IMG/VR virus record: IMGVR_UViG_3300008217_000015
Location: 1 to 43,040 of that record
Source of the DNA: a virus
Strand: one strand, 5' to 3'
DNA: 43,040 nt
Below, in pieces: positions 18,440-43,040 of this stretch. Position 1 is the stretch's first letter. Every line of letters starts with the position of its first letter. Under the pieces are notes generated by a model. That model did not search any database. It was not told where the DNA came from and saw only the letters and a program-made list of their open reading frames with translations. The translations under genes were made by a program, and so were the position numbers.

Positions 18440-18440
18440 T

Positions 18441-20564: not shown

Positions 20565-20607
20565 TATCTTTTTTTCTCCTAATCTCGATTAGTTTACTAT
20601 TTTAGAC

Positions 20608-23402: not shown

Positions 23403-23406
23403 TATT

Positions 23407-25671: not shown

Positions 25672-25681
25672 AGTATTTCTC

Positions 25682-26116: not shown

Positions 26117-26121
26117 TTCTC

Positions 26122-26535: not shown

Positions 26536-26565
26536 CGTTTTTACCCTTTCTATTATATAAAATTT

Positions 26566-26676: not shown

Positions 26677-26682
26677 CGATTT

Positions 26683-28925: not shown

Positions 28926-28928
28926 TGT

Positions 28929-29453
28929 TTATAGGTTAACTTCAGTGATATAATCTTTTTCGTGAGTAAAATCTTTTATATACCAAGTATTGTTTACACT
29001 AACGAGTAGTGCGTATAAATCTTTAGATTTAAAATTTTTAACAGGATGGGGTAATTCAAAAGGATAAGAAACTTTTTCAAGCCATAGTAATTGATCAGTT
29101 TTCTTTTCAACTCTAGCTATTTTGGCTTTAAATTTTTCTTTTTTACTTAAATTAATATGTGATCCTTCTGAGTCTACTCCCCACTTCACTTTATCAATAG
29201 ACTTAATTAACTGCGATAATCTACTAAACGTAAAATCAAAAACAATTCGTGATTGCGGGTGCATTTTATCTAAGTTTAGTAATCTTTCGGGGTAGGTATT
29301 GTCATTTAAGTTAAAACTGTCAAGTACATAAATTTTTCCATTCTTAACTTTAGTTACTTTAATTTGTGAGTTCTTAGTGTCGTAATGAATACGGTAGGGC
29401 TTTGTTTTAAGTCCAAAAAATGGAAATCGAATACAACTAAATTTAGTATTCAT
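28929..29453 (-). CDS. Hypothetical protein
   Basis: 174 residues, Lys-rich with several beta-like segments (SRIVFDFTFSRLSQLI, DLYALLVSVNNTWYIKDF). I see no catalytic or metal motif. It lies exactly between the polymerase and the helicase (no gap at the polymerase stop), so it is expressed with replication proteins and may be an accessory factor. Function unknown. Confidence 0.6.
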   Translation of the reverse strand: MNTKFSCIRFPFFGLKTKPYRIHYDTKNSQIKVTKVKNGKIYVLDSFNLNDNTYPERLLNLDKMHPQSRIVFDFTFSRLSQLIKSIDKVKWGVDSEGSHINLSKKEKFKAKIARVEKKTDQLLWLEKVSYPFELPHPVKNFKSKDLYALLVSVNNTWYIKDFTHEKDYITEVNL

Positions 29454-31697
29454 TTATATGTCATATCTTTCTAATTCTCCCCAACTTGAACCGATTTCAA
29501 AATCTACACCTATTGGACAGTTTGGAATTTCTATTCCTCGTGGAGTTTGCAAAAATTGTTTGACGTTTGTAACCCATTCCTCAACGTAGTTATCTTGAAC
29601 TTCTGCAACAATAGAGTCATGAACAACTGTAAAGGGAAGCATTACTTTTTGATACTTGTTTTTTTCTATCCAGTTAACTGTATCAATTAATCCTAAAACA
29701 TTAATATCGCTGGCAACACTTTGAACTAAAAAGTTTACTCCACTTCTAACCGCATGTTGGGAAACTCCTTTATTGGGACTTCGACTTTCCGGCAGTCTGC
29801 GTTTGCGTCCAAAATAGCTATAAATATATGCATGATTCTCAATAAATAAGTTAGATCGTTCAATCCATATTTTAAGAGCACTTGCTTCTCTAAAATATTT
29901 AGAAATAAACTGTCTTGCTTGCGGAAAGGATATATTAGCTGTTTGAGCTACTTTAGCTGGTCCTGCTTGATACATTATTCCAAAAGTAATTGCTTTTGCA
30001 TATTGTCTTTGGTTAGGAAACTGAGTTTTTACCTTACTAATAGCACAAGGAAGATTAAAAATCTGTTTTGCTACATATGAATGAAAGTCGAGTTTATCAA
30101 TAAAAGCTCGTTGTAGAAAGGTATCGTTACTTAGTGCGGCAGCATAATAAACTTCGGCTGTTTGAAGATCACACTGAATTATTTTACAGTTTTCTTTTGC
30201 TCTAAAAAGCTTTTTAATGTCTTTATTATCTCTTGGTATATTCTGGTAATTTAAAGTACCTGAACTACTTAATCTTCCACTCGTAGTTCCGTGGACATTA
30301 AAAGATGAGCGTAGTCGTTTATCTCTATCTAAGCCTTCTAAAATATTTTTTATGTAGGTATTACTTAATTTGGTTTTTTCTCGCAAATCTAATATCGCTT
30401 CAGCTACAGGGTGTTTTAGTTCTGCTAAAACTTCTTTGTCAGTAGATTCAGCCCCAGTAGCGGTCTTTTTTGTCGATTTAAGCTTTAAGATATGAAAAAA
30501 AACTTCTCTTAGCTGAACTGTACTGTTTGGGTTGAATGTTTTTTCATGTAAACGTTCGAACTCTTGTACACTTTCATCTAGAGAAATTTCATTAATACAT
30601 TCTTCTATGTCAATTTCATAATTATGTTGTAAATTTAATGCGTGATCAACACTAATTGGTCCTCCGTTGTATTCCAGTTTAGCTAACGCTAATGTTGCGG
30701 GTTTGAGAATGGTTTCATAGAGTGTGTTGAATTTTTCATTTTCATTAACTAATGGGTAAAATTTGTTGTAGAGTTGAAATGTGCCATCAGCATCTTTACA
30801 TGCATATGGAGCTAGTATTTCTACAGGTAACATTCCGTAATTAAAATTTTCTAATTTTATTTTCTTTTTTCTGGCAAAAGCTTTTTTGTAGTCGTCTAAC
30901 TCTTTTTCGTAGTCTCCTAGATCTGTAAATCTCATAGCTAATTTTTTTAAACCATGAGTTCCAACAGCTTCTTCTAAACAGTAGTGAAGCAACATAGTGT
31001 CTTCAAAGTGAGGAAACTCAAATCCAAATTCATATTCTAAAAAGCTCATGTCAAACTTGGAGTTATGGAATATACAAATTTTTTCTTTGAAAAGTTTATC
31101 AAGTTCTTCTATAAAGATTTCTGCTACTTCTGCAGTTACGTATAATCCTTCGTGTTCTTGCGTGCTTAAAGCGATTCCTAGTACACTTCCTTTTCTAGGT
31201 GATAAGGAAGTTGTTTCAATGTCAACAACGATTTTTGAACTGTTTTGAAGTATTACTAAATACTTTTTAAAATCTTCAGAGTTATCAATAGTTTTGTAGT
31301 TTTTGTCATGTTGTGTTGAATCTATTTCTCCTGTTATTACTTTTTCAATTTTAGAGAATGCTTTTTTAATTTCATCTTTGTATTGGGGTTTGAAAACTGT
31401 AAGATTAGGATGAATAACAGGAATATAGCGTTTTTCTATAAAATGAGCATTATATTTAGTAATCCCTGTTAACCCTGTAACATATTTTAATGCTTCAGCC
31501 CCTACAGGACAAATAACTTTATAATCAGTAAATACTGAAAAGTCTAGGTCTATATCTTTTTTAAGAATTTTTTCTTTTTCTTTAGAGCATAAAAAATGAA
31601 CGTCATATGCTCCTATCTTTTTATCATATTCGGCTAACGTTCTAGTAGGATTGGTTTCTGATGCTGAAGCAAAAACAAAGGCAATTGAATTATTCAT
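29454..31697 (-). CDS. Family A DNA polymerase with UDG-like N-terminus
   Basis: 747 residues. N-terminal ~120 residues resemble the second half of a uracil-DNA glycosylase fold (CPVGAEALKYVTGLTGITKY, YIPVIHPNLTVFKPQYK). The 3'-5' exonuclease follows: VVDIETTS (D159, E161), HNSKFDMSF, YACKDADG. The polymerase has motif A IIQCDLQTAEVYYAA (D510, E515), motif B R564-K568-F572-Y576 and motif C VVHDSIVAEV (D694, Ser in place of the usual Glu). F572 corresponds to Phe762 of E. coli Pol I. No 5' nuclease domain; the FEN gene supplies it. Own promoter just upstream. Confidence 0.93.
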   Translation of the reverse strand: MNNSIAFVFASASETNPTRTLAEYDKKIGAYDVHFLCSKEKEKILKKDIDLDFSVFTDYKVICPVGAEALKYVTGLTGITKYNAHFIEKRYIPVIHPNLTVFKPQYKDEIKKAFSKIEKVITGEIDSTQHDKNYKTIDNSEDFKKYLVILQNSSKIVVDIETTSLSPRKGSVLGIALSTQEHEGLYVTAEVAEIFIEELDKLFKEKICIFHNSKFDMSFLEYEFGFEFPHFEDTMLLHYCLEEAVGTHGLKKLAMRFTDLGDYEKELDDYKKAFARKKKIKLENFNYGMLPVEILAPYACKDADGTFQLYNKFYPLVNENEKFNTLYETILKPATLALAKLEYNGGPISVDHALNLQHNYEIDIEECINEISLDESVQEFERLHEKTFNPNSTVQLREVFFHILKLKSTKKTATGAESTDKEVLAELKHPVAEAILDLREKTKLSNTYIKNILEGLDRDKRLRSSFNVHGTTSGRLSSSGTLNYQNIPRDNKDIKKLFRAKENCKIIQCDLQTAEVYYAAALSNDTFLQRAFIDKLDFHSYVAKQIFNLPCAISKVKTQFPNQRQYAKAITFGIMYQAGPAKVAQTANISFPQARQFISKYFREASALKIWIERSNLFIENHAYIYSYFGRKRRLPESRSPNKGVSQHAVRSGVNFLVQSVASDINVLGLIDTVNWIEKNKYQKVMLPFTVVHDSIVAEVQDNYVEEWVTNVKQFLQTPRGIEIPNCPIGVDFEIGSSWGELERYDI

Positions 31698-31703
31698 ATT
31701 TTC

Positions 31704-31732
31704 ATTATACTCTTTTAGTTAGAATTTGACAA
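31704..31732 (-). promoter_or_regulatory. Leftward sigma-70-type promoter giving a near-leaderless polymerase mRNA
   Basis: On the minus strand: TTGTCA (31732-31727), 17-base spacer, TATAAT (31709-31704). Only 6 bases separate the TATAAT from the polymerase ATG (31697), so transcription should start at about the A of the ATG. The -35 lies inside the end of the primase gene. Confidence 0.75.
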
Positions 31733-32596
31733 GTAATATTTAATTTCATCTGGGCTTAAATCTCCTGGATCGTGATGTTGAGCAAGTTGAATTATATTAG
31801 TTTGAAAGTCATTTTTTTCCAACAACCTTTTAATTTTTTTAGCAGCTAAAGACCCCGCCGAGTCTCCATCCATCATTATTTGAACTGAGGTTACTCCTAA
31901 CTCGTCTAAAAGACGAACTTTTTTTTCTCCGAAACTCTGAGTTCCAAAAGTGCATAGTGTATTGCGATAGCCGTGTTGCCATAAGTTTAGCATATCAAAT
32001 AATCCTTCTACTATAATAACTTCTGAAGTAGGAGCAAGTTTGTCTAAAGGAAATAATACATTTAATACAGAAGCACCTGCGGGTCTACGTAAGTACTTGG
32101 GTTTACTTTTTCCACCAAATCTATGTCGAGCTTCAATAAATCTTAACTTGTGGAATTGGTAAATAGGAATACAAATGTAGTCGTTTAAACCGTATTCTTC
32201 AGTAAAAAATGTTTTAAACTCTGTTATAGTCTTAGTTGAAATGTTTTTCCACATTCCTTTAGCTGTTTGGTACTTAGTGGGTAACTCTATGGTATTTTTT
32301 TCTAATAACTTTCTTATTTTGCGCTTAATTTTTTGTATCTTATAAGGCTGTTTGTTATCAAATGTTAGTTTAGTTTGAATTCCTATACTTTTAAGAAATT
32401 TTTCTTTTCCTCCACTGAATCCACAACTCCAACAATGGAATATATTATTTTCTAGGTTATAACTTAGACTTGGATTCTCGTCCGTATGTGTGCCATGAGT
32501 GCATTTAATTAAAATTTCTACTGGATTATTGGTTTTTTTGTAAAAAACGTGTTTTTCTTCTAAAATTTCAGTTAAATTAGTCATTTTTATACACAT
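31715..32596 (-). CDS. DnaG-type primase
   Basis: 293 residues. An N-terminal zinc ribbon (C32, H37, C55, C58 in IKCTHGTHTDE and FHCWSCGFSGG) is followed by a TOPRIM domain with E197 (VIIVEGLFDML) and D243-x-D245 (MMDGDSAGSLAAKK). There is no helicase domain, so it acts with the separate DnaB-type helicase upstream. ATGs at 32596 and 32584 (both without a clear ribosome site) are possible starts; 32584 would reduce overlap with the previous gene to 8 bases. Confidence 0.88.
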   Translation of the reverse strand: MCIKMTNLTEILEEKHVFYKKTNNPVEILIKCTHGTHTDENPSLSYNLENNIFHCWSCGFSGGKEKFLKSIGIQTKLTFDNKQPYKIQKIKRKIRKLLEKNTIELPTKYQTAKGMWKNISTKTITEFKTFFTEEYGLNDYICIPIYQFHKLRFIEARHRFGGKSKPKYLRRPAGASVLNVLFPLDKLAPTSEVIIVEGLFDMLNLWQHGYRNTLCTFGTQSFGEKKVRLLDELGVTSVQIMMDGDSAGSLAAKKIKRLLEKNDFQTNIIQLAQHHDPGDLSPDEIKYYLSNSN

Positions 32597-32861
32597 ATCT
32601 TGTATTGCAATATCCGCAATTTACGAAACCTTCATCTCCCATTTCATAATAGACTATTGGATGATCATTATCGCATTTTATATATGGGTTATCTGTTTCA
32701 ATTACCGCATTAGTATAAGAACTAGGGGTAAAATATTCTATTTCATAGTTTTCCATCTTTTTCTCATGTTTTTTCCAACGATATACTTCATACAAAACAT
32801 ACAAGCCTATAACTATAAAAACCCCAAAAAAATCACTAAATGTCACTTTATTTAATCTCAC
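32577..32861 (-). CDS. Membrane-anchored zinc-finger protein (zf-CHCC-like)
   Basis: 94 residues, starting at a GTG (32861; a second GTG at 32846 is possible). An N-terminal membrane helix (FFGVFIVIGLYVLYEVY) is followed by a C-terminal zinc motif KCDNDHPIVYYEMGDEGFV then NCGYCNTRYVY, matching the CHCC arrangement of the NDUFS6-type zinc finger (C...H...C..C). A cytoplasmic or periplasmic small metal site on a membrane stem is unusual in phage. It overlaps both neighbours. Function unknown. Confidence 0.55.
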   Translation of the reverse strand: MRLNKVTFSDFFGVFIVIGLYVLYEVYRWKKHEKKMENYEIEYFTPSSYTNAVIETDNPYIKCDNDHPIVYYEMGDEGFVNCGYCNTRYVYKND

Positions 32862-33378
32862 AGCTATTGTCTTCTGGACAGCTAAGTAGGAGTAGATACA
32901 GAAACGGAAGTACGTCTGGATGTATTCTCCATTTCGTGTTTACACCATACGGTTCAGTATCACGACTTTTCTGTATCCAACCTTCTCCTTCTGTTTTTAG
33001 CTTTGGTTTATAATAAGGTGTCTTAGGAACTCTTTGAGCTCTCATAAGTTCAAACACGGTCATTAAGGATGCAGTTGTGTAAACACCTGGTATAGTGCTC
33101 TTGAAATCTATATAATTTCGTACATCATCTAGTCGTTTCCATTCTCCATCTTTCATCGAACATAGAATATAGAATCTATGTTTTCCTACTTCACCACGAA
33201 CCATTCGTTCCCACCATATTTTTCTTTTTTCGATATTTTTTAAGTGATTCTTTTCAAATAATTTTATAATACCGTCTGCGTTAAAGATAAGGTTTGATTG
33301 ATCTTCCTTTGCATTGATGTTATTAGAAGAAAGAATCAGAATAGTAACTGTAAGTATTTTAGTAATTTTTTTGTTCAT
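32848..33378 (-). CDS. Putative secreted protein
   Basis: 176 residues. An N-terminal signal peptide (MNKKITKILTVTILILSS then NNINA) has a likely cleavage after residue ~23. The mature protein is basic with a Trp-rich first half (KRKIWWERM) and a final hydrophobic stretch (LPFLYLLLLSCPED). Cys residues could form disulphides. Family not recognised. Export suggests action in the host periplasm, such as altering the envelope or blocking other phages. Confidence 0.55.
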   Translation of the reverse strand: MNKKITKILTVTILILSSNNINAKEDQSNLIFNADGIIKLFEKNHLKNIEKRKIWWERMVRGEVGKHRFYILCSMKDGEWKRLDDVRNYIDFKSTIPGVYTTASLMTVFELMRAQRVPKTPYYKPKLKTEGEGWIQKSRDTEPYGVNTKWRIHPDVLPFLYLLLLSCPEDNSCEIK

Positions 33379-33382
33379 TGTT

Positions 33383-34003
33383 TTATCGAGTATTGCTGTA
33401 AAAGTGGGTAATGCAGTACCTTCCTAATCCTGCTTTTTTCTTTTTTAAAGTTATGGGGTCTACTTGATGTTCATAAAAACCTGGAAACATTACCATACGG
33501 TTATATCTACATCTCACTTTTATATTACTGTCGGTGAAAGTGAGATTTCCCCCGCTAAACGCTTTTGGTTTTATGTATAACCATATTAAGGCTGTTACTT
33601 GTGCGCTATCGTAATGAGAATGGTAATGGTGATTGTTCTCATAATAACTAATTATCGTGTTATCTTTGTCGCAGGATTGCCAATTTCTGTACACAGGACT
33701 AGTTTTTTGAAATGCTTGTTTTATTTTATTAGAAAATATTTTTGGTTGCTGAAATCTTAAAATATAGCTTGTGTTTCTGCCTTTTTGGGTATAAACTTCA
33801 TCTGGGTATAGTCTATAACAATCGGCTTTAGAGTTACCTTCTTCGTCTTTTGCTGCCAGTCCTTCTGCTGCATTTGGCATTGTTTCATAATCAGTATAAA
33901 AACTTAATTCTTTCCAAATTTTTTCTAGTTCTTTTTTAGTGTACCAATTGTCTACTAGGAGGAACGGAAATACGGGGTCTTTATTACATATTTTTATTTT
34001 CAT
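33383..34003 (-). CDS. 2OG-Fe(II) oxygenase (prolyl 4-hydroxylase-like)
   Basis: 206 residues. The iron triad is visible as H130-x-D132 (HSHYDSA) and H179 (YEHQV), and R195 (GRYCITHF) is placed to bind 2-oxoglutarate. ALIWLYIKPKAFSGGNLTFTD between them is the usual jelly-roll core. Such oxygenases are frequent in cyanophages and other marine phages and hydroxylate unknown protein or nucleic-acid targets. It overlaps the next gene by 4 bases (ATGA). Confidence 0.85.
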   Translation of the reverse strand: MKIKICNKDPVFPFLLVDNWYTKKELEKIWKELSFYTDYETMPNAAEGLAAKDEEGNSKADCYRLYPDEVYTQKGRNTSYILRFQQPKIFSNKIKQAFQKTSPVYRNWQSCDKDNTIISYYENNHHYHSHYDSAQVTALIWLYIKPKAFSGGNLTFTDSNIKVRCRYNRMVMFPGFYEHQVDPITLKKKKAGLGRYCITHFYSNTR

Positions 34004-34194
34004 ACGTTTAATACTTTTTTAATTATATTAAGTTGTTCTTGGAATATCTGTGCTGTCTTTTCCGCATCATAAGATACAAATGTATGTATTAGTAATCTTC
34101 CATCTCCAGGATTAGGATGTGCATGTTTCATAATATGCTCTATACCTTTTTCCGCAAGTTTTTGTATTTTAATTAAGGTTTCCGTTTCATACAT
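34000..34194 (-). CDS. Small helical protein, tandem paralogue A
   Basis: 64 residues. LIKIQKLAEKGIEHIM and IFQEQLNIIKKVLNV at the two ends match LLKVEKLAEKG and IFNQQLNVIKKVL in the gene immediately upstream, so both descend from a tandem duplication. Mainly helical. ATGA-type overlaps on both sides. Function unknown. Confidence 0.6.
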   Translation of the reverse strand: MYETETLIKIQKLAEKGIEHIMKHAHPNPGDGRLLIHTFVSYDAEKTAQIFQEQLNIIKKVLNV

Positions 34195-34393
34195 CTTTTA
34201 ATACCTTTTTAATAACATTAAGTTGTTGGTTAAAAATATCATTATATCCTCGATCAAAATTGTGATGTACTTCTCCTTGAGAATTAATAAATCCTTTTTC
34301 AGCAAGTTTTTCCACTTTAAGTAGGGTTTTTAAAAATAAGTCTCTTTGACCGTGAGCATATTCCCAAGCATGCATTTTTTTAAATTTTGTCAT
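34187..34393 (-). CDS. Small helical protein, tandem paralogue B
   Basis: 68 residues, the partner of the gene at 34000-34194 (shared L.K..KLAEKG and IF..QLN.IKKVL segments). It has an extra N-terminal aromatic stretch (MHAWEYAHGQRDLFL). It overlaps copy A by 8 bases and starts in the stop of the next gene upstream. Function unknown. Confidence 0.6.
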   Translation of the reverse strand: MTKFKKMHAWEYAHGQRDLFLKTLLKVEKLAEKGFINSQGEVHHNFDRGYNDIFNQQLNVIKKVLKDV

Positions 34394-34647
34394 TAGTACG
34401 TTTCCCAGGGGTTTGGATACTTTTTACGTATATAGTTCCACTCGTTTTCTTCTATACAGAAAAAAAAGTTTTTAGTTTTAAACGGTTTTAGATAAGCTTC
34501 GTTTACGTCAAAGTTTAAATCCCAGTAATTTTCAAGCACGTATCGAGTACAAATACTATGGTTTTCAAATATGGGGCTAGGAAAATGAAACCAGTCATTC
34601 CCGTCTCCTCCAGACCAGATTGCAATAATAAGCCAAATTTCTTTCAT
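34393..34647 (-). CDS. Hypothetical protein
   Basis: 84 residues from the ATG at 34647, which overlaps the HIT gene stop (ATGA); an upstream TTG at 34668 would add 7 residues. Trp- and Phe-rich (IWLIIAIWSGGDGNDWFHF). A weak hydrophobic start could be a signal anchor. No family recognised. Confidence 0.6.
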   Translation of the reverse strand: MKEIWLIIAIWSGGDGNDWFHFPSPIFENHSICTRYVLENYWDLNFDVNEAYLKPFKTKNFFFCIEENEWNYIRKKYPNPWETY

Positions 34648-35078
34648 AGTCCTAGTGCTTTTTTCCAAGAATAGTGTTCTGGGTGATTTTCGTAAGACAT
34701 GGGTATTCTACCGCCTACTCTAGCTAATCGAACGCTTCCAATGTAAGGACCGTCACTATCGTCATAATGTCTGGGAATAAAATGAACATGCGGCCACATA
34801 ATACTTTGCCCTCCTGCCACATACATATTAATACCTAAATGATATCCATCAATTTTTTTATTTTCTACTTGACTTTCTCCTTCTTCAAAAGCTTCTTCAA
34901 AAGCTTTACAGATATAATAATCATATTTTTGTTTAGGAATAAATAAAAGATGATTTTCACATACTGGATATTTATCATAAAGAACTATACAGTATTCAGT
35001 TTTTTTAAAAATTCTGTTTTCTGCACGGGCGAAAGGCGTTTCGTTAAATGTTTTGTGTTGGTTAGTTTTTAAGGTCAT
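34644..35078 (-). CDS. HIT-family hydrolase-like protein
   Basis: 144 residues. It has the strand CIVLYDKYPVCENHLLFIPKQ and the HIT core GQSIMWPHVHFIPRHYD (HxH with a following Arg). The usual third His of HxHxH is replaced by Ile (H-V-H-F-I), so catalysis may be altered. HIT proteins hydrolyse or transfer nucleotides such as Ap4A. ATGA overlap downstream; 17-base overlap with the helicase gene upstream. Confidence 0.7.
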   Translation of the reverse strand: MTLKTNQHKTFNETPFARAENRIFKKTEYCIVLYDKYPVCENHLLFIPKQKYDYYICKAFEEAFEEGESQVENKKIDGYHLGINMYVAGGQSIMWPHVHFIPRHYDDSDGPYIGSVRLARVGGRIPMSYENHPEHYSWKKALGL

Positions 35079-36438
35079 TTTCTGATTCTGAGCCGTATTT
35101 GGCTACTCCTAGTGGTTTTTCATTAATTAACTGGCTATCTGTTGATATTACTTTAGTACATTCCCAATTCATTCCAATATCAAAGTTCATAGCTCGTCCA
35201 TTTCTGATTTTAGTAGTATGAACTACGATACGATTGGCGTCGTCATCTGGATTAGGTGGAAAGAAATTAAATCCCCTATCTGCACTGTCTAATATGCCTT
35301 TTGCAAATCTTGCTTCCCCTCCTGCGTCAATTTGATACGGACTAAACATAGTTATATCATATTTTCTACTCATTAATTTTAATGATTCGGCAATTGCAAT
35401 TTGAGATTTCCAGTCTTTTTGATCTTCGTACTTAACGATATTAATATAATCTACTACTCCCATTGTAAAATTATTGTATTTTGTATGAAACATATTACAA
35501 TAATGGTCAATTCTATTAATAGAAATTGCTGCATCATCTATAATAAAAAACCTACGATCTAACATTTTAGGTTTATTGATTTTAAATGATTCTTCAAAAT
35601 GTTTAAAATTTAAATCGTCTTTTAATTTTTTTAGTTTGTTATCTACAAATTCGCTTTTTTCATAGAAAGTTCTACATTTACTTTCTGCCATTTGAATTTT
35701 TTGTGTTGCTGATAACCTATTTTTATAAATATCTAAAAAAGGTACATCACTAATGATACTTAAAAGTCTATCGTGAACTTCTTTATATCTCATTTCAATT
35801 GTAAAGAACGCAACTGTGTTTCCTTGCATAAATCTTTCAATAGCGCAATTTAGACTAATGATAGATTTTCCCGACCCACGTCTTCCTCCTAGTAAAACAA
35901 GTTCTTGAGTTGCAAATCCGCCATTTACAGCATCGTACTCGGCACTTAAACCAGAGGGAAATAAACGAAAATCTTGAACTCCTGGGAAGAATTCTAAATC
36001 TGCAACATCATAAAGTTCGTCTGATGTTGGAATTGCGTTATTCATACTTAGTAAGTGATCTTGGAATTGATCAACTATTTCTATTTTTTCTAAGTCTTCT
36101 AAGTTATCAATAAACTTATCTAAAAAAGAAATGGTTTCTTCTCTGATAAAATAGTCTTGAAGTTGGCTTACTAAAAAATCATCTTCTATATGAGGAACGT
36201 TATTGTCTTCACTTAGAATTTGAATTTCAAGGTACTCTTGAACTGCTTCATCTTTATTTAGCATTACCATTTCTTGAACAGATGGTAACTTTAAATGAGC
36301 TTTATAAAAATTTTCTATTTTTGAGTATAAAATAATATTAGTTCCACTAAAAAATTGAGGAACTAATTTTGTAAAAAAATCGTGATTTTGCGACTCAAGA
36401 AGTTTTCTTAGAGTAACTTTTTGTAAGTCTAGTGCCAT
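35062..36438 (-). CDS. Replicative DNA helicase, DnaB/gp41-like
   Basis: 458 residues. A helical N-terminal domain is followed by a RecA-type core: FPSGLSAEYDAVNGGFATQE, Walker A GGRRGSGKS (184-192), TVAFFTIEMRYKEV, MGVVDYINIV (Walker B) and FSPYQIDAGGEARF. This is the DnaB-type hexameric fork helicase that works with the separate primase and polymerase encoded downstream. It starts within the stop of the HTH gene. Confidence 0.88.
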   Translation of the reverse strand: MALDLQKVTLRKLLESQNHDFFTKLVPQFFSGTNIILYSKIENFYKAHLKLPSVQEMVMLNKDEAVQEYLEIQILSEDNNVPHIEDDFLVSQLQDYFIREETISFLDKFIDNLEDLEKIEIVDQFQDHLLSMNNAIPTSDELYDVADLEFFPGVQDFRLFPSGLSAEYDAVNGGFATQELVLLGGRRGSGKSIISLNCAIERFMQGNTVAFFTIEMRYKEVHDRLLSIISDVPFLDIYKNRLSATQKIQMAESKCRTFYEKSEFVDNKLKKLKDDLNFKHFEESFKINKPKMLDRRFFIIDDAAISINRIDHYCNMFHTKYNNFTMGVVDYINIVKYEDQKDWKSQIAIAESLKLMSRKYDITMFSPYQIDAGGEARFAKGILDSADRGFNFFPPNPDDDANRIVVHTTKIRNGRAMNFDIGMNWECTKVISTDSQLINEKPLGVAKYGSESENDLKN

Positions 36439-37217
36439 TAATTACTGTTGCCGTTTGCAACTGGAAAAAGTTGGTATCTGGGACGCTCGCTCCAGTGTCC
36501 CTGTTCTCCTAAAACGTATAAGCCATAGGATTCTATTCCGTATTGAATAAGGTTATTTTGTTGTCTTTTAAGTTCTTGTTTTATAGCGTAAGACTTCCAT
36601 GATTCTCCATTATCGTAATCCCAGTAAATATTCCAATGTACATCTTCTATTCCTTCGTAATCTTCGCCATACTTTTTTCTTGCTTTTTTAAGAGGCGGAA
36701 GTGCAACATATCGTGAGTGATAACTTTCACTATGATATTCTATCCATTTTTCATCGTATACATGCTTAATTATCCCAAACTCACTGGTTGGAGCAATAAA
36801 TACTTTATCTTCGATATTAAATTTAATATCTAAATCCTGTTTGATATGACTTACTTTTGCTTTTCCTTTCTTTTTTCTGGCGCGGAAAGGAACTCCGTTT
36901 TTTAATAAAACATTTTTGACTCGATATGAGGTTATATAAAGGGTTGTAGCAAGTGCGTTTAAACTGTTTCCGTTTTGATACTCGGAAATAATATGTTGTT
37001 CCGTATCTTCAGAAATAGGCTTGGCTTGGGCTTCTTTTTTTAGTGTTTGGATTCTTTTTTCTTTTTCTTTAAATTCGGTAATAATGCTTTCTAGTCGTTT
37101 TGTATTATAAGCTATTCCTAAATGTGTACAGATAGCTTTTTTCGTTTTATCTATTTTTAGCATCCAAATAGCTTGTCTAATTTTGGATTCAGGTATATCG
37201 TGTTTAATTTTTGTCAT
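36438..37217 (-). CDS. HTH DNA-binding protein, first gene of the replication operon
   Basis: 259 residues from the ATG at 37217 (a GTG at 37226 adds 3 residues). Two helix-turn-helix-like segments: IRQAIWMLKIDKTKKAICTH and HIISEYQNGNSLNALATTLY followed by ITSYRVKNVLLKNGVPFR. A basic linker (RARKKKGKAKV) leads to a Trp/Tyr-rich C-terminal domain. It directly follows a promoter and precedes the helicase, so it could be an origin-binding or regulatory protein that loads the helicase. Function inferred. Confidence 0.6.
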   Translation of the reverse strand: MTKIKHDIPESKIRQAIWMLKIDKTKKAICTHLGIAYNTKRLESIITEFKEKEKRIQTLKKEAQAKPISEDTEQHIISEYQNGNSLNALATTLYITSYRVKNVLLKNGVPFRARKKKGKAKVSHIKQDLDIKFNIEDKVFIAPTSEFGIIKHVYDEKWIEYHSESYHSRYVALPPLKKARKKYGEDYEGIEDVHWNIYWDYDNGESWKSYAIKQELKRQQNNLIQYGIESYGLYVLGEQGHWSERPRYQLFPVANGNSN

Positions 37218-37234
37218 ATTTTTCACTTATATAT

Positions 37235-37264
37235 ATTATATATTACAAAAGGAGGAGTAGTCAA
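37235..37264 (-). promoter_or_regulatory. Leftward sigma-70-type promoter of the replication operon
   Basis: On the minus strand: TTGACT (37264-37259), 18-base spacer, TATAAT (37240-37235). Start near 37228 leaves a leader of about 11 bases before the ATG at 37217 and no clear ribosome site. Confidence 0.7.
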
Positions 37265-37277
37265 ATTAAATATGGTT

Positions 37278-37469
37278 TTAGCCGCTCTTATTTTTTAATT
37301 CTCGAATCCTATCTTGCATATACTTTTTGGCGCTAAGTAATTGGGCGTCTTCTGCTTCGCGGGTAGGATAGCCTCTATTATTTTTTTTAGTGTTCTGTAG
37401 TCTAAAACTAATTTCATTCATTTCGTGTGTAAATGCTGCCAGTACTAGGTATTCTCTACTTTCTAACAT
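37278..37469 (-). CDS. Small hypothetical protein
   Basis: 63 residues from the ATG at 37469, with AAGGA 7 bases upstream; a longer frame to 37532 runs into the membrane-protein gene. It is helical and charged (THEMNEISFRLQ, EDAQLLSAKKYMQDRIRELK). The ATG overlaps the stop of the tiny membrane protein upstream. Function unknown. Confidence 0.6.
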   Translation of the reverse strand: MLESREYLVLAAFTHEMNEISFRLQNTKKNNRGYPTREAEDAQLLSAKKYMQDRIRELKNKSG

Positions 37470-37642
37470 TATTTTTTCCTTAAAAATAATCTTCTTATGA
37501 GAAAAAATGAAAGCACTATTAATGCTATACATCCTAATTCTAACATATTAACAGAGTGCTCTAATTCTTGTAGTCTTTTTTCTGTTTCATAAACATATGG
37601 GATCAGGTCGTCTACCCATACCATTTCTGCTTTTGCGAACAT
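37469..37642 (-). CDS. Small coiled-coil membrane protein
   Basis: 57 residues, previously hidden by its short length. MFAKAEMVWVDDLIPYVYE starts it, a short heptad-like helix (RLQELEHSVNML) follows, then one membrane helix (LGCIALIVLSFFLIRRLFL) and a basic end. AGGA is 8 bases before the ATG. Its stop overlaps the next ATG. The coiled coil near a single helix resembles small phage membrane regulators. Function unknown. Confidence 0.6.
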   Translation of the reverse strand: MFAKAEMVWVDDLIPYVYETEKRLQELEHSVNMLELGCIALIVLSFFLIRRLFLRKK

Positions 37643-37666
37643 TATTTTTTCCTCTTATTTAATTAT

Positions 37667-37696
37667 AAAAAAAACTGATAATTAAAAATTATCAGT
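37667..37696 (-). terminator. Leftward rho-independent terminator
   Basis: ACTGATAATT (37674-37683) and AATTATCAGT (37687-37696) form a perfect 10-bp stem with a 3-base loop, followed on the minus strand by eight T (37674-37667). It closes the transcript from 37807-38112 and any transcript from the promoter at 37743-37771. Confidence 0.85.
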
Positions 37697-37736
37697 CTAA
37701 CTAAAATAAAAATATAGTCTTTTTACAAATTAGACA
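37667..37736 (-). ncRNA. Candidate small RNA or attenuated leader between promoter and terminator
   Basis: A consensus leftward promoter at 37771-37743 should start a transcript near 37736, and a rho-independent terminator ends at 37667. The product would be about 70 bases, AT-rich, with a strong 10-bp hairpin at its 3' end and a weak GTCT/AGAC pairing near the 5' end. No protein of useful size is encoded in it. Alternatively it is an attenuator leader for the gene at 37469-37642. Confidence 0.4.
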
Positions 37737-37742
37737 TTCTAT

Positions 37743-37771
37743 ATTCTAACGTATAAAAAAGTATTAGTCAA
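37743..37771 (-). promoter_or_regulatory. Leftward sigma-70-type promoter upstream of a terminator
   Basis: On the minus strand: TTGACT (37771-37766), 17-base spacer, TAGAAT (37748-37743). The next strong feature downstream is a terminator at 37696-37667, only 40 bases past the expected start, not a gene. Confidence 0.6.
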
Positions 37772-37806
37772 TATTGAATTTGTTGGAAAAGCTATAAACT
37801 CTTGAT

Positions 37807-38112
37807 TTAATGTGTAATTAAATCGTCATCTGCAAAATAGAGATCAGATATAATATTTCTTAATAATCCAGTTTTTGTATAAACATTTGTAAAACCTTCT
37901 TTAAAAAACTTGTTATTACGGTATAGTTTTTCAACAACAAAACTAGTTTCATAGGCTTTTAAGAGTCTTTCAAAACATAAGGTGTTTTTAGTGATATTTG
38001 GGTAAAACTTATTTATTAGCGAACTGTAATAAGTTAACCGTTCAAGTTCGGGTAGAGATAGTATATAGTCAATGGTTTCCTCATTAACTTCGTGAAGATT
38101 CATCATAAACAT
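37807..38112 (-). CDS. Hypothetical protein
   Basis: 101 residues from the ATG at 38112, with GGGA 8 bases upstream; ATGs at 38106 and 38103 are alternatives. An open frame extends upstream to a TTG at 38274 but crosses the terminator of the previous gene and overlaps its coding end, so I reject that part. Content: NLHEVNEETIDYILSLPELE, then a helical Lys/Tyr-rich stretch. Translation from read-through is implied. Function unknown. Confidence 0.55.
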   Translation of the reverse strand: MFMMNLHEVNEETIDYILSLPELERLTYYSSLINKFYPNITKNTLCFERLLKAYETSFVVEKLYRNNKFFKEGFTNVYTKTGLLRNIISDLYFADDDLITH

Positions 38113-38123
38113 TTTTCCCAAAT

Positions 38124-38153
38124 AAAAAAAAGCGACGGTTGCTACCGCCGCTT
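38124..38153 (-). terminator. Leftward rho-independent terminator of the HTH-repeat gene
   Basis: Stem positions 38130-38139 and 38144-38153 pair as 10 bp with one G-T on the minus strand, a 4-base loop, and the minus-strand T-run at 38131-38124. It lies 24 bases after the stop of the 226-residue protein, making that gene a one-gene transcription unit. Confidence 0.85.
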
Positions 38154-38176
38154 TCTTTACTAAGAGTTCTAAAAGA

Positions 38177-38857
38177 TTACTCAGCCGCTTTTGGAGTGTA
38201 ATCTGCAGCACTAAGACCGCGTCGTGTAAGAACCGTTTTAACTCCTCGTACCGTCTTACCAAAATGCTCGGCAAGTTGGTCTACGGTCTGATCAGTCAGG
38301 TTCTCGATCCCTTCGTAAGGATCGCTCTTAGAAGCCTTCTTGTCACGCTGTGGTGCTTTAAGGCCCATGCTTAGTAGCTTGCCTCGAACAGAAGCTACTG
38401 TCTTGCCAACTGCGTCGGCAATCTCTTCGAGATAAGAACCGCCAGAAACCATTGAGCTAATGGTAGATTCCTCTTCAGGCGTATAGGTCTTCGGAGTGAC
38501 CTTTTTCTCAGCAGGTTTAACGTGCTGAGTCATTTCGAGCGAGAGCGCTTTTCCATTGATCTGGCGGGCGGTAAAGTTACCATCAGCAAAGGTTGTAGCA
38601 ATCTCTTCGGCAGTATACGTGCCGGAGTTATCCGAAAGGAACTGTCGAAGCGCATCCGTTTGTTCGGGAGAAAAAACGGGGGCAGCTCCAGGCTTTTTCG
38701 GAACGTCAAATCCAAGTTTCCGCAACTTAGCGGTAACTGACCGACGTGGGAACTCAAACTCGTCGCAGAGTGTCTGGATAACCTCTTCGGTCACTCCAGA
38801 CGAAGATACTTGCTCCATACGAGCAACCATCTCATCAGTATATTCGAATTTACTCAT
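38177..38857 (-). CDS. Multi-repeat helix-turn-helix DNA-binding protein
   Basis: 226 residues with at least four recognition-helix-like repeats: RRSVTAKLRKLGFDVPKK, ARQINGKALSLEMTQ, KTVASVRGKLLSMGLKAPQ and KTVRGVKTVLTRRGLSAADY, joined by Ala/Lys/Pro linkers. GC is about half by eye, clearly above its neighbours, suggesting optimised or imported codon use. It has a consensus promoter, a leader hairpin and its own terminator, all signs of high-level separate expression. A similar protein occurs in marine phages (from memory). Likely a chromatin-like or regulatory DNA-binding protein; not proven. Confidence 0.75.
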   Translation of the reverse strand: MSKFEYTDEMVARMEQVSSSGVTEEVIQTLCDEFEFPRRSVTAKLRKLGFDVPKKPGAAPVFSPEQTDALRQFLSDNSGTYTAEEIATTFADGNFTARQINGKALSLEMTQHVKPAEKKVTPKTYTPEEESTISSMVSGGSYLEEIADAVGKTVASVRGKLLSMGLKAPQRDKKASKSDPYEGIENLTDQTVDQLAEHFGKTVRGVKTVLTRRGLSAADYTPKAAE

Positions 38858-38920
38858 TTAAGTATATTCCCCTCATGTTTTAGTTTTTGTTCAGTTGGTG
38901 TTTTTTCCAACTCTTCTTTG

Positions 38921-38949
38921 ATTATATATTTATCTTTACAAATAGGCAA
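38921..38949 (-). promoter_or_regulatory. Leftward sigma-70-type promoter with leader hairpin for the HTH-repeat gene
   Basis: On the minus strand: TTGCCT (38949-38944), 17-base spacer, TATAAT (38926-38921). The ~57-base leader contains a hairpin (AGTTGG 38893-38898 with CCAACT 38907-38912) just after the start point and GAGGGG before the ATG. The same TTGCCT/TATAAT pair drives the small-gene block on the other strand. Confidence 0.8.
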
Positions 38950-38977
38950 GAAAAAAGTGAAATTATTTCCTACTTAG

Positions 38978-40726
38978 TTAAAGCTTTCCGTTCAATATGT
39001 TCTGTCGGTTTGCCCAGTAGTCGATAATTTTTATTCCGAATTTTTGGGCTTTCGTCATTTTTGAACTTTTGGTCTGTGTGTCAGCAGAAATCAAAGCGAT
39101 GCAGTCTTTAGTGACTGTGCTAGTAACTTGATAATTGAATTGACTAAGAATTTCAGTCAACTCACCTCGTGTTACGTCTAATTTTCCGGTTACGCACAAT
39201 TTTTTACCGCCGGAGGACTGTAAAACGGCGTCAACGCTCTGATCCTGCTTTAACTGAAGAGGTAGGGTGGTGACCCACTCTTCGTTGACATCTAACCACG
39301 CGAGAATGGAGTCGACAGTCTTAGGTCCAATCCCTGTTATTTGTGCTAATTCAATCTCTCGCAGCCGATTGAATTGTGGGAGGTGAGTCACGATTCGTCT
39401 CGCGGTTCCTCGTCCGACTCCCGGAATCCCTAAAGCAGCTAATACCATATGATATGGTTTAGTTTTAGATCTTTCTATTTCGGCTTGTATTTTTTGACCG
39501 TTTACCCCGAGCGTCTGCCATTCTTGCGACCGATAAAGATCCGTAGGATGGGTTAGCTGTAACTTGGCTATGGATTTAGGCCCCAGACCCTTAATTTCTA
39601 AGATTCTGATAAAATATTCAAGCCCTTTTACCGAGTCGTGCTGCGATGCGTCACTACAGTAAAGTCTTGGGCCGACCCTTCGAAGAGTATATCCAACGGC
39701 CTCTTCGGCATGTCTTTGTTCAATTCTGGTACTGGCATGGAGATGGTTTAGAACTCTGTTGAACTTTGGAATTACCCCGCCAGACCTTTCGATCTCGATA
39801 ATATCACCAAGCCCAAGTTTGTGCTGTTCGATAAATCCAATATTGTGAAGAGTTGCTCTCCCGATGATAGCCCCGTCGATCTCCACAGGATCGATGACTC
39901 CGATGGGGTTAACCATTCCCGTGCGACCAATAACCCAGATCACGTCTTGTAAAGAGGTGGTTGCTGTAAGCGTTCCTCTTTCTTTTAAAGCGATAGCAAA
40001 TCTTGGATGTTTTGAAGTATATCCAAGTTCTTGACATCGTTTCCATTTATCTATTCTATATACTATGCCGTCTTGAGGATACTGTTCACATAGTTTTTGA
40101 TTGAAGACGGATTGAAAACCTAAGTTTTCAATTAAATTCATTCTAATAGTGTAATCTAATTTAGTTCCTAAAGAATCATGCGCGATAAAACTGATATTGC
40201 GAGATTTAAATTCTTCAGGATCTTTTAGTCCGAGCGCACCGCTAACGTAGTTTCTAAAATTTTCTACTTTGTTATCAGTTACACACTCACCTGTTACTAT
40301 TAAAGTGTTATAGTGACTAGGAATAGATTTTGGTACTGCTTTACAGTATTTAACTAAATGTGAGACATTATCTCCATATTCTCCGTTACCTCTGGTTAGC
40401 GCCATTTGAAACTTACCATTTTGATAAATAACAGTTAAATTAGTTCCATCTAATTTTGGCGTTACCACATTAAATTCGTTGTCTATTTCTTTTATATCAT
40501 AGACTTTTTTTAAGGAAAACAACGGAAATGGATGTCTTACTTTTCCAGCGTAATGACCGACTCTAATAGTTGGACTATCAGGATCAGCCCATCCCTGAGC
40601 TGTTTCTACTGCTTCTAACTTATTGTACAAAATATCATACTCTTCATCACTGATTTGAATTTGATGAAGATCATAATAAAAATGACCGTGTTTTAGTACA
40701 GTTTCTTTTAGTTCCTGATAATTCAT
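38978..40726 (-). CDS. ligA: NAD+-dependent DNA ligase with degenerate zinc finger
   Basis: 582 residues against ~670 in bacteria. Domain Ia (YYDLHQIQISDEEYDILY...PDSPTIRVG), adenylation site K91-L-D-G, OB fold (LGDIIEIERSGGVIPKF), HhH repeats (GIPGVGRGTARR, ITGIGPKTVDSIL) and a BRCT end (KKLCVTGKLDVTRGELT). The four-Cys zinc finger is reduced to one Cys (VGPRLYCSDAS). It seals nicks in replication using NAD+. GC is higher in the C-terminal two thirds (38978 to ~40000) than in the N-terminal third, by eye. GAGG precedes the ATG. Confidence 0.92.
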   Translation of the reverse strand: MNYQELKETVLKHGHFYYDLHQIQISDEEYDILYNKLEAVETAQGWADPDSPTIRVGHYAGKVRHPFPLFSLKKVYDIKEIDNEFNVVTPKLDGTNLTVIYQNGKFQMALTRGNGEYGDNVSHLVKYCKAVPKSIPSHYNTLIVTGECVTDNKVENFRNYVSGALGLKDPEEFKSRNISFIAHDSLGTKLDYTIRMNLIENLGFQSVFNQKLCEQYPQDGIVYRIDKWKRCQELGYTSKHPRFAIALKERGTLTATTSLQDVIWVIGRTGMVNPIGVIDPVEIDGAIIGRATLHNIGFIEQHKLGLGDIIEIERSGGVIPKFNRVLNHLHASTRIEQRHAEEAVGYTLRRVGPRLYCSDASQHDSVKGLEYFIRILEIKGLGPKSIAKLQLTHPTDLYRSQEWQTLGVNGQKIQAEIERSKTKPYHMVLAALGIPGVGRGTARRIVTHLPQFNRLREIELAQITGIGPKTVDSILAWLDVNEEWVTTLPLQLKQDQSVDAVLQSSGGKKLCVTGKLDVTRGELTEILSQFNYQVTSTVTKDCIALISADTQTKSSKMTKAQKFGIKIIDYWANRQNILNGKL

Positions 40727-40752
40727 TAACGCCTCGTTTTTTATCTTGTTTA

Positions 40753-40781
40753 ATTATAACTTAAATTTAGGTATATAACAA
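40753..40781 (-). promoter_or_regulatory. Leftward sigma-70-type promoter for the ligase gene
   Basis: On the minus strand: TTGTTA (40781-40776), 17-base spacer, TATAAT (40758-40753). It occupies the gap between the stop of the Myb-like gene (40785) and the ligase ATG (40726). Confidence 0.75.
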
Positions 40782-40784
40782 GAC

Positions 40785-41096
40785 TTATTTTGCAAGGCGT
40801 TCTTTTAAAGCAGTAACTAAATTAATTAAGTTACTCTTTTTATTGAGATTGGTCCCATCAATTTTAATGCTGAGAAGAGCTTCTATATCTCGAAGCATGG
40901 TTTTAACTGTCATAATTTGACGAGTTTCATCATTTCGAGGTTTTTCATAAATTTTTAATTGAACTAATTTAGAGATAACAGAACGATATCCTTTACCGAA
41001 ATGTTCAGCTAATTCATTAACATCTTTCTGATTTTCTTCTTTGTATAGTTTAATTAATTTAGCCTCTTCTTCATCGCTCCAGGCTTTTACGCTCAT
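40785..41096 (-). CDS. Small SANT/HTH-like DNA-binding protein
   Basis: 103 residues. WSDEEEAKLIKLYKEENQKD then VNELAEHFGKGYRSVISKL is a Myb/SANT-like or three-helix HTH unit. LAEHFGK is identical to a stretch of the 226-residue HTH-repeat protein, so the two are related. The second half is a helical, possibly dimerising region. AAGGAAAGTGAG precedes the ATG. It could regulate the ligase or other early genes. Confidence 0.65.
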   Translation of the reverse strand: MSVKAWSDEEEAKLIKLYKEENQKDVNELAEHFGKGYRSVISKLVQLKIYEKPRNDETRQIMTVKTMLRDIEALLSIKIDGTNLNKKSNLINLVTALKERLAK

Positions 41097-41102
41097 TTTT
41101 AC

Positions 41103-41375
41103 TCACTTTCCTTTTTCAAAATCAAACGATATTTGTGGATTTCGTTCGTATTTTTGACTAATTATTTTTTCTGCTGTTTGGAGGAGAGGAATCACAGAGC
41201 TGACTTCGTCAGCTAGTAAAGCGTATCCATTCTTAGTTGGAAACCAGTACCCAGTATCTCCGTCTAGTGAATACTCTCTAATATGAAGATAGACTATGTT
41301 ATTAAACTCATTAAGGGTAACTTTTATTACGTTTCCGTTAGGTTTAGAGTAAGCTTCTCCAAGTTCTAAATTCAT
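41103..41375 (-). CDS. PC4-like ssDNA-binding protein
   Basis: 90 residues. IVYLHIREYSLDGDTGYWFPTKNGYALL (in parts: YLHIREY, GYWFPTKNGYALL) followed by a helix matches the PC4/p15 coactivator domain (strands then GW.PTK.G..L then helix), found in bacteria and phages as a small ssDNA-binding dimer. Possible role in transcription or replication. ATGA overlap with the next gene upstream. Confidence 0.65.
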   Translation of the reverse strand: MNLELGEAYSKPNGNVIKVTLNEFNNIVYLHIREYSLDGDTGYWFPTKNGYALLADEVSSVIPLLQTAEKIISQKYERNPQISFDFEKGK

Positions 41376-41641
41376 TGTGTCTTCTCATTTAGTTGTTCTA
41401 AAGCGGTGTTAAAGATATTAATGTCGTGTTTATTAAAAAATCTAAAGGTAATTCCCTTATGTTTAGCTGGAAAATGTCCTATACTCCAGCTAGAAGTACA
41501 ATTTTCCTTACAAATTTCTTTTAGTTTTTTAATTACAGGATCATGTTGGTCATTATACTCAGTTTCAATTACTGTTCCGTGTGCGTGTCCTATAATAAAT
41601 CCATCTTCTTTTTGACTTTGGTGTGCCTCATACCAAACCAC
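41372..41641 (-). CDS. Hypothetical protein with GTG start
   Basis: 89 residues. The GTG start is supported by AAGGAG 8 bases upstream. Content: FIIGHAHGTVIETEYN, then CKENCTSSWSIGHFPAKHKG and a helical end. No family recognised. Overlaps the PC4-like gene by 4 bases. Confidence 0.6.
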   Translation of the reverse strand: MVWYEAHQSQKEDGFIIGHAHGTVIETEYNDQHDPVIKKLKEICKENCTSSWSIGHFPAKHKGITFRFFNKHDINIFNTALEQLNEKTQ

Positions 41642-41646
41642 GATTT

Positions 41647-41886
41647 TTACTCCTTATCACAAGTTACTTTGTTTACGGTTCCGTCTTTATTAACTTGTTT
41701 AAAATAAATTTTTCCATTAAAAGGAATTGCGTAAGAACCGTCGGACTGTTTTCCACTTTTACAGTCGTGTGGGCCAACATAAACCCACTCTGATCGTCCA
41801 TGTTCCGATCTGTGATAATACCCTTCTTGTTGGGAAAAAACAGCTATACTACTACCAAAAATTAACAAAAATATTAATAAAAACAT
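41647..41886 (-). CDS. Small secreted protein
   Basis: 79 residues. Signal peptide MFLLIFLLIFGSSIAVFS then QQEGYY; mature part ~60 residues with two Cys (HDCKSG, VTCDKE) that could pair. AAAGGAG precedes the ATG. Likely periplasmic; an early-expressed envelope or exclusion factor is possible. Family not recognised. Confidence 0.6.
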   Translation of the reverse strand: MFLLIFLLIFGSSIAVFSQQEGYYHRSEHGRSEWVYVGPHDCKSGKQSDGSYAIPFNGKIYFKQVNKDGTVNKVTCDKE

Positions 41887-41900
41887 AATAACTCCTTTAT

Positions 41901-42170
41901 TTATAAAACTTTACCAATTTTTTTAAGATGAAATTTTCCACCATTACCATTGGGTTTAGTACCATAGATAGTCGGTGTTAAGATGGATTTGTGACACTCT
42001 GCTAATGTATTTTTTGAAGCGATGTATCTTGCTACTTGATCTTCACAAGCACTTTTAGTTTCGTAAGCTTTCCAAGGAAACCATCCAATGGTAGCCTCTA
42101 CTCCTTCATATTCCCAAGGTGTGGGAACAAAAATCCATAATACAAAGTGAACAACTATTAAATTTGTCAT
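41901..42170 (-). CDS. Putative exported or membrane protein
   Basis: 89 residues. Hydrophobic start (LIVVHFVLWIFV) as signal or anchor, then PWEYEGVEATIGWFPWKAYE and two Cys (SACEDQ, AECHKS). No clear ribosome site (GGAAC is weak); the tiny membrane-protein gene ends 7 bases upstream, so coupling is possible. Function unknown. Confidence 0.55.
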   Translation of the reverse strand: MTNLIVVHFVLWIFVPTPWEYEGVEATIGWFPWKAYETKSACEDQVARYIASKNTLAECHKSILTPTIYGTKPNGNGGKFHLKKIGKVL

Positions 42171-42176
42171 AAAAAG

Positions 42177-42272
42177 CTATGTTCCAACATTGATAATGAA
42201 TGAGATAAGTAAGGCTGATCCTATTAAAGTAAATAGTAACCACACTATATCATCTTCTGGATTTTCTTTCAT
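42177..42272 (-). CDS. Tiny single-helix membrane protein, paralogue of the gene at 26566-26676
   Basis: 31 residues: MKENPEDDIVWLLFTLIGSA then LLISFIINVGT. One membrane helix with the same DDI.WL...L.GSAL.I core as the 36-residue protein between purE and purS. AAAGGAG lies 6 bases before the ATG. Conservation of the pattern in two distant sites supports coding. Function unknown. Confidence 0.7.
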   Translation of the reverse strand: MKENPEDDIVWLLFTLIGSALLISFIINVGT

Positions 42273-42286
42273 TTATTGCTCCTTTC

Positions 42287-42676
42287 TTAAAACCAAACAA
42301 TTAATAGTATTCTTCCAACGCGCGCCCACCATGCAGAGTAATGTTTTTCTCCGCAATTTAAACAATTAAAACTTTCTTTTGAAACAGAAACACCCATTCG
42401 TGTTAAGAAAGTATAATATCTTTTATTTTTCCATTCTATTGGGTGGATAATTTTCCATGCCCAAGCAGCAGTTTGTCTTCTATTTTGTTCAACCCAAGGA
42501 ATCTCCATTCCACACTTACCACAAATGCTTTTTACACTAGTTAATTCTGTACTTCGATTTTTAGAAGTTTTAATCTCAGGTGGTACAGGAGCGTTATAAA
42601 TCCATGATTTAAACCGAAGAATTAGTTTTATGATTGGTGAGGATTCTTGTGGAAAGAACTTTTTTAGATTTTTCAT
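42287..42676 (-). CDS. Zinc-ribbon-like hypothetical protein
   Basis: 129 residues. Two CxxC pairs (ICGKCGME and FNCLNCGEK) about 45 residues apart could bind one zinc. The middle is aromatic (TAAWAWKIIHPIEWKNKRYYTF), and the end is hydrophobic (WWARVGRILLIVWF), perhaps membrane-associated. It is the first leftward gene next to the non-coding right end. No clear ribosome site or consensus promoter was found. Confidence 0.55.
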   Translation of the reverse strand: MKNLKKFFPQESSPIIKLILRFKSWIYNAPVPPEIKTSKNRSTELTSVKSICGKCGMEIPWVEQNRRQTAAWAWKIIHPIEWKNKRYYTFLTRMGVSVSKESFNCLNCGEKHYSAWWARVGRILLIVWF

Positions 42677-42855
42677 TTTGCGTTTTGCTAATTTTTATGA
42701 TACTATATATTTGCATAAAAAGCAAGTTATTTTAAACGAAGTTTAACTACTATTAATAAGATTAATTTACTTTGCTTCTAATGCAAACGCGATAGCATAT
42801 AATTTTTTCAGCTTGCATAATGTGGCATAACGTAATAATGAAATTATTACTTGTT
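42677..42855. other. AT-rich non-coding region with inverted repeats
   Basis: No gene seen. An imperfect inverted repeat pairs 42710-42727 (TTTGCATAAAAAGCAAGT) with 42769-42787 (ACTTTGCTTCTAATGCAAA). A perfect one, GTAATAAT-GAA-ATTATTAC, lies at 42832-42850, just before the tandem repeats. A further TTGCAT occurs at 42813-42818. The region lies between the first leftward gene and the repeats; regulatory or origin function is plausible. Confidence 0.6.
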
Positions 42856-43040
42856 GGTGGGGCTATTGTGCCTCCTGTCAGCGGTAGCTGACACGTCGGT
42901 GGGGCTATTGTGTCTGCTGTCAGCGGTAGCTGACACGTCGGTGGGGTTATTGTGCCTCTTGTCAGCGGTAGCTGACACGTCGGTGGGGTTATTGTGCCTC
43001 TTGTCAGCGGTAGCTGACACGTCGGTGGGGTTATTGTGCC
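42856..43040. repeat. 42-bp tandem repeat array, each unit with a perfect hairpin
   Basis: Units at 42856-42897, 42898-42939, 42940-42981, 42982-43023 and a partial one at 43024-43040 cut by the window. Units 3 and 4 are identical; units 1 and 2 differ by a few bases in the first half. Each contains TGTCAGC-GGTA-GCTGACA (7-bp stem, GGTA loop) and a GGTGGGG start. GC is about 62% (26 of 42 in unit 1), far above its surroundings. No open frame of note. Likely an iteron-like origin, protein-binding array or genome-end element. Confidence 0.95.

Follow-up and report, generated by a model that had tools for sequence, protein, structure and literature searches.

A tandem 42-bp hairpin repeat at the broken end of a marine T5-like phage contig is a local amplification of a module that is single-copy in a sister phage and adjoins a candidate structured RNA

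The linear virus record analysed here, 43,040 bases in its full length (the window), ends in a tandem array of 42-bp units. This array is not a genome end but the local amplification of a hairpin module of which sister phages have one copy. The contig represents part of a marine T5-like phage genome and breaks within the array, in which at least four units lie head to tail; the position of the array as the last feature of the contig is as expected, because assemblers break at tandem repeats. The DNA to the left of the array appears to encode a candidate non-coding RNA of about 165 nt that is absent from Rfam. One explanation, which we favor with somewhat less than even confidence, is that the array is an amplified transcript 3'-end hairpin module, situated where this predicted small RNA and a protein gene would converge. 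The features of the locus are listed in Table 1.

Table 1 Position of the array, its hairpins and the surrounding features in the window
Feature	Position	Strand	Remarks
T5-type replication cluster (dUTPase-like + flap nuclease, SbcC/D, helicases, polymerase, primase, D5, NAD ligase)	14807..42676	-	Context
Nearest complete ORF, 129 aa	42287..42676	-	Without a Pfam match; closes the block of minus-strand genes
Promoter-like TTGCGT-17-TACTAT with extended -10 (TGATACTAT)	42678..42706	+	Inferred; reads toward the array; exact motif in L017
Candidate structured non-coding RNA, about 160-165 nt	42711..42871	+	Homologous to L017 9147-9314 (-)
Last helix of the candidate RNA	42815..42871	+	Pairing of 42815-42832 with 42852-42871; array unit 1 contains most of the 3' strand
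Open frame through the array, ...DVSATADKRHNNPT repeats ending NK-stop	42847..43038	-	Sister glycosyltransferase ends ETSATADKAA-stop in the same frame
42-bp tandem array	42856..43040	+	4.4 units; truncated by the contig end
Hairpin 1, TGTCAGC-GGTA-GCTGACA	42876..42893	+	Orthologous by position to the only hairpin of sister phages
Hairpin 2	42918..42935	+	Exact TGTCAGC-GGTA-GCTGACA
Hairpin 3	42960..42977	+	Exact TGTCAGC-GGTA-GCTGACA
Hairpin 4	43002..43019	+	Exact TGTCAGC-GGTA-GCTGACA

The array is real. TRF recovered it with a period of 42, 4.4 copies up to the contig edge, 95% matches and a score of 328, the best score across 20 dinucleotide shuffles of the whole window being 72, and the at least 4.4 units described in an earlier note made from the letters of this DNA thus hold. 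So does its statement that the hairpin is unchanged in all full units: the 7-4-7 form is exact in four of four. The unit reads GGTGGGG[C/T]TATTGTG[C/T]CT[C/G][C/T]TGTCAGCGGTAGCTGACACGTC and varies in 4 of its 42 columns (8, 16, 19 and 20), none of them in the hairpin. Units 3, 4 and the partial unit 5 are identical to one another, while units 1 and 2 differ from the rest. Since these differences exist and the seed is present in independent contigs, an assembly artefact is unlikely; the copy number could still be wrong. The GC content of the array is 59%, slightly below the 62% or so given earlier, against 34% in the rest of the window, where every other 185-bp stretch stays at or below 53%. 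A folding program that does not model pseudoknots predicts two plain hairpins per unit. No T-run follows the array hairpins on either strand, so that they fail the usual description of an intrinsic terminator (a GC-rich hairpin, then a T-run).

Four IMG/VR contigs carry a ligase 78-79% identical to that of the window, and three of them (L005, L007 and L017) extend to the array locus. These three are practically one virus and count as one distinct sequence. They align with positions 42678-42892 of the window at 77% identity over 228 bp and contain a single hairpin, TGTCAGCGGTAGCTGACG, 17/18 identical to that of the window; with up to 3 mismatches allowed, no further copy occurs in the sister or in the 43,040 bases of the window outside the array. 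The sister hairpin is located about 32.5 kb within a 59.8-kb contig. The presence of a single hairpin so deep inside a contig is what identifies the array as a local amplification, and it contradicts the suggestion that the array could be part of a terminal repeat. The comparison also bears on selection, which the same note had deduced from the hairpin remaining unchanged while other positions vary. This argument does not hold from the array alone, as four variable columns would all spare the hairpin by chance with p = 0.095, but constraint finds better evidence between species, where the hairpin is conserved at 17/18 and its surroundings at 77%. Downstream of the hairpin in L017, CGTC-TCGGGGTAACG (the stretch CGTCTCGGGGTAACG) resembles by eye a degenerate start of the next unit, CGTCGGTGGGGTTATTG. 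It is plausible that such a decayed start provided the seed for slippage.

The conservation of the region to the left of the array is structural. A consensus fold of the window and L017 contains 55 pairs, including the hairpin, and none of them is broken in either phage in spite of the 77% identity. Identical columns make up 104/110 of the paired positions versus 49/97 of the unpaired ones. Shuffling of the alignment columns gave z = -5.5 for the plus strand, with 0/200 shuffles as good; when the array hairpin was left out, the values were -5.3 for the plus strand versus -3.4 for the minus strand. Sliding the partners by 1-3 columns reduces pairing to 33-45%. A fully compensatory change, from U-A to C-G, occurs at one pair (42836-42846). 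Each of the four one-sided changes retains a G-U pair on the plus strand, whereas the same pairs read as minus strand amount to 8 mismatches. That G-U pairs are retained solely on the plus strand favors a plus-strand RNA. The structural argument is drawn from two distinct sequences, the window and the sister virus, with that single fully compensatory pair, and a control that deals letters among sequences is uninformative with so few.

Transcription from the promoter-like sequence would start at about 42713, which coincides with the beginning of the first helix. The motif TGATACTATA is also found sense-wise 22-67 nt upstream of ATGs in three other loci of this phage group (L077, L130 and L168), and a stricter consensus scan missed the sequence at 42678-42706, which scored below its threshold. 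The L017 counterpart of the last helix has an intrinsic terminator at its end, GGCGCGTATTGTGCC-TTTTTT, whose T-run is missing from the window together with 12 surrounding bases. The L017 hairpin is just downstream of the U-run and may be outside the RNA proper. No conserved ORF was found within the candidate RNA, a small one reading MQSLWHKAIQLAQCCTT in L017 and MQTR in the window having been rejected by eye as not conserved. Taken together, the conserved structure, the likely promoter, the lack of a conserved ORF and the intrinsic terminator of the sister support a candidate non-coding RNA. Rfam provided no credible match to this RNA or to the array (even at E 5 the only matches were implausible microRNAs), and a covariance model detected no third member in 89 + 47 loci (over 130 related loci) or in 18 records.

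The relation between this RNA and the array follows from the content of unit 1, in which the hairpin (42876-42893) is preceded by the larger part of the last helix's 3' strand (42852-42871): the repeat duplicates the 3' module of the RNA. If folded, a transcript through the array is predicted to give one hairpin after another, and the helix strand at 42815 would have alternative partners. Among the functions proposed in the earlier note (iterons, protein-binding sites, structured RNA or terminal repeat), a structured RNA array is the best supported, as it would continue the 3' end of a conserved structured element that follows a promoter-like sequence on the same strand. Several steps may be proposed on this basis. 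In the 42-bp module, the 7-bp hairpin would follow the 3' strand of the predicted plus-strand RNA's last helix, and the module would be located where the RNA transcript meets the 3' end of an opposite-strand glycosyltransferase gene, which in the window phage would start beyond the contig edge. Short direct repeats on both sides of the hairpin (CGTC..GGGG) could have allowed replication slippage or recombination to add whole 42-bp units. If transcribed, the units would fold as a string of independent hairpins and make up the 3'-end structure of the converging transcripts, where they might limit read-through or 3' decay. The string would probably replace the T-run terminator that is present in the sister and missing in the window phage. 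The sequence lends no support to termination by the array hairpins themselves: no T-run follows any of them, whereas the same phage has an ordinary terminator at 14109-14135. Should the flanking element prove to be expressed, the replication genes of marine T5-like phages have as a neighbor a small RNA that has not been described, with a 3' end that changes through the duplication of whole units; the evolution of an RNA hairpin in copy number would then have a natural example.

The main alternative is that the array may be no more than a local duplication, that is, a neutral minisatellite recently expanded by slippage, without function and tolerated between genes. The identity of units 3, 4 and 5 points to very recent copies, and with only 4 variable columns and a single-copy sister, slippage without function fits the array as well as the reading we favor. 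Nevertheless, the seed hairpin and the flanking structure are kept between species, so that the module is probably constrained even if its copy number is not, and we consider neutrality rather unlikely as a full account. Were it correct, the locus would serve as a warning not to ascribe a function to a repeat at which a contig happens to break.

A coding explanation is suggested by the glycosyltransferase of the sister, whose last codons, on the opposite strand, contain the hairpin and which ends in ETSATADKAA-stop. The array would then encode 14-residue repeats (DVSATADKRHNNPT) that form the C-terminal tail of a protein read from the minus strand; this protein, whose start would lie past the contig edge, is probably a glycosyltransferase. 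The period is divisible by 3, and the frame used by the sister is open across the whole array and ends in two stops. Yet on the minus strand two frames out of three are open, which may occur by chance, the upstream gene is outside the window, and the other glycosyltransferase homologues stop before the tail: a SATADK-like tail is absent outside the sister among 80 glycosyltransferase loci. Translation of the array is therefore improbable. Because the tail is missing from those loci, the hairpin is probably an add-on to the end of the gene rather than an ancestral part of it, as far as these sequences indicate. In more distant cousins (61-63% ligase identity), the glycosyltransferase stop at this junction is directly followed by another hairpin, ATRCAC-TCC-GTGYAT, whose stem varies by compensatory changes, which indicates that a hairpin recurs there without sequence conservation. 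In L140 to L143, at about 6100-6190 (L141: 3547-3627), the ACTCCGT core of these glycosyltransferase-end hairpins is kept and the stems are fully changed, the variants being ATCAAC-TCC-GTTGAT, ATGCAC-TCC-GTGCAT and ATACAC-TCC-GTGTAT. A conserved RNA at the junction of the cousins was considered and rejected, as the alignment fold gave a non-significant z of -0.5 for the plus strand and a weak -2.4 for the minus strand.

A protein-binding array, either operator or replication iterons, seems less probable still. An 18-bp palindrome recurs every 42 bp, about four helical turns, beside an AT-rich flank with nested dyads, and 17 of its 18 positions are conserved between phages. Lambda-type replication origins have iterons of comparable aspect, several short palindromic repeats beside AT-rich DNA, but these lie inside the initiator gene, unlike the array. 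In addition, the sister has one copy, neither record holds more copies elsewhere, and the GC skew keeps its sign across the locus in the sister; we found no positive evidence for the iterons that had been proposed.

Phages also provide an example of adaptive repeat expansion. In PhiTE escape phages, pseudo-ToxI repeats expanded from 1.5 to 4.5-5.5 copies under selection by a defence system (PMC3475682), so such expansions can be adaptive. By analogy, the locus could encode a new non-coding RNA of phages, the 3' hairpin domain of which was tandemly expanded to titrate a host factor, such as a defence nuclease, as an unrelated analogue of pseudo-ToxI, a scenario that we regard as highly unlikely. 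A decoy or antitoxin-like array whose tandem hairpins titrate a host defence protein is the least probable reading of all. The parallel lies in tandem RNA-scale repeats in a phage non-coding region that pass from about one copy to 4-5 in PhiTE (PMC3475682), and from few units in the relative to at least 4.4 here. Type III antitoxin RNAs are transcribed tandem repeats of about 34-45 nt; the array repeat measures 42 nt, and its transcription is predicted. A complete system of this type has its cognate toxin gene downstream, a side that for the array falls past the contig edge. In contrast, the PhiTE repeat is a 36-nt pseudoknot similar to ToxI, whereas the array forms simple hairpins, two in the predicted fold, with no similarity found. 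Neither an Rfam antitoxin match, even at E 5, nor a pseudoknot fold was obtained for the array (with a program that omits pseudoknots), and no ToxN-like gene was found in these records, where the search controls were silent too. Judged by its sequence, nothing at the locus would link the array to a toxin.

The array hairpin may also be compared with bacterial palindromic repeats. Like the REP elements of the CGTC/GTAG-tagged superfamilies (Di Nocera 2013, PMC3733652), it is a short GC-rich hairpin on the 20-40 bp scale, found at a gene 3' end (that of the sister's glycosyltransferase, which it overlaps) and partly coding, with clustered and probably transcribed copies. Unlike REPs, which are interspersed and of high copy number, it occupies one locus only in the window and the sister at up to 3 mismatches. 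REPs carry an unpaired CGTC or GTAG end on an 8-9 bp stem, with AT pairs first in the CGTC type, whereas the array stem is 7 bp, CGTC comes after the hairpin and GTAG lies within the loop and stem. No transposase association was seen for the array hairpin. Rickettsia palindromic elements (PMC2229807) similarly combine a palindrome with a peptide encoded at a gene end, but are 105-146 bp long and interspersed.

A host-derived repeat was rejected, as the array is absent from the plasmids and phages searched and a search of 84,980 genomes gave only three single 18-mer matches, below the 7 or so that our own estimate predicts under equal base composition. The hairpin was absent from 369 genomes of one sampled class, and 385 of another yielded only an already-known match (host membership is not established for these classes). 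In other viral contigs, hairpins that occur in pairs and share these half-sites look like acidic coding repeats and are not considered relatives. One match (L041) is an in-frame part of hisH in a Hyphomicrobiales MAG; it encodes VSATADK and is an insertion missing in two relatives. It was treated as chance and not as a mobile palindrome, matches in its family being no commoner than those of the reversed control.

The window belongs among T5-like phages by its gene content, which adds a tail J protein to the replication genes of Table 1. Its ligase and D5 share about 34-40% protein identity with those of cultured T5-like phages. It keeps the order of T5 (Demerecviridae, AY543070), namely ligase, D5, helicase, primase, polymerase and D10-D15, but no array or RNA is annotated upstream of the T5 ligase (AY543070). 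The D5 and ligase genes (38000-40000) have 43-45% GC, whereas elsewhere in the replication cluster the value is about 33%; the sister has the same rise. Amid the replication genes there is a metabolic one, a PurE-type AIR carboxylase (26122-26535, minus strand; PF00731, E 6e-50). On the plus strand, a class II aminoacyl-tRNA synthetase-like protein (13121-13999; PF00152, E 5e-15; phrog_29758, function unassigned) stands directly upstream of a tRNA-Asn gene (14010-14096), itself followed by the strong bidirectional terminator mentioned above; a synthetase-like phage protein next to a tRNA of matching class would be unusual. A Hint domain (intein/hedgehog-type; PT-HINT E 2e-7) is located close to the N terminus of the tail J protein (17-2995, plus strand), and a tiny cysteine-rich ORF, MSGNSMTCSTPECSCDPCECTSCIPDSGCCECTVRKD, was noticed by eye from 7807 to about 7920 on the plus strand.

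A palindrome, CAGTTGCCCACNAGCAACNGGGG, was observed in the Hyphomicrobiales MAG and members of its family (L210, L211, L212, L213, L217; G022, G775, G776, G778, G781). It has roughly 35-64 near copies per genome versus none for the reversed control, some of them in tandem at 37-44 bp spacing and one in frame in hisH. Beside this hisH copy, a second palindrome, GTCAGCTAMCGCTGAC, behaves as a presence/absence insertion.
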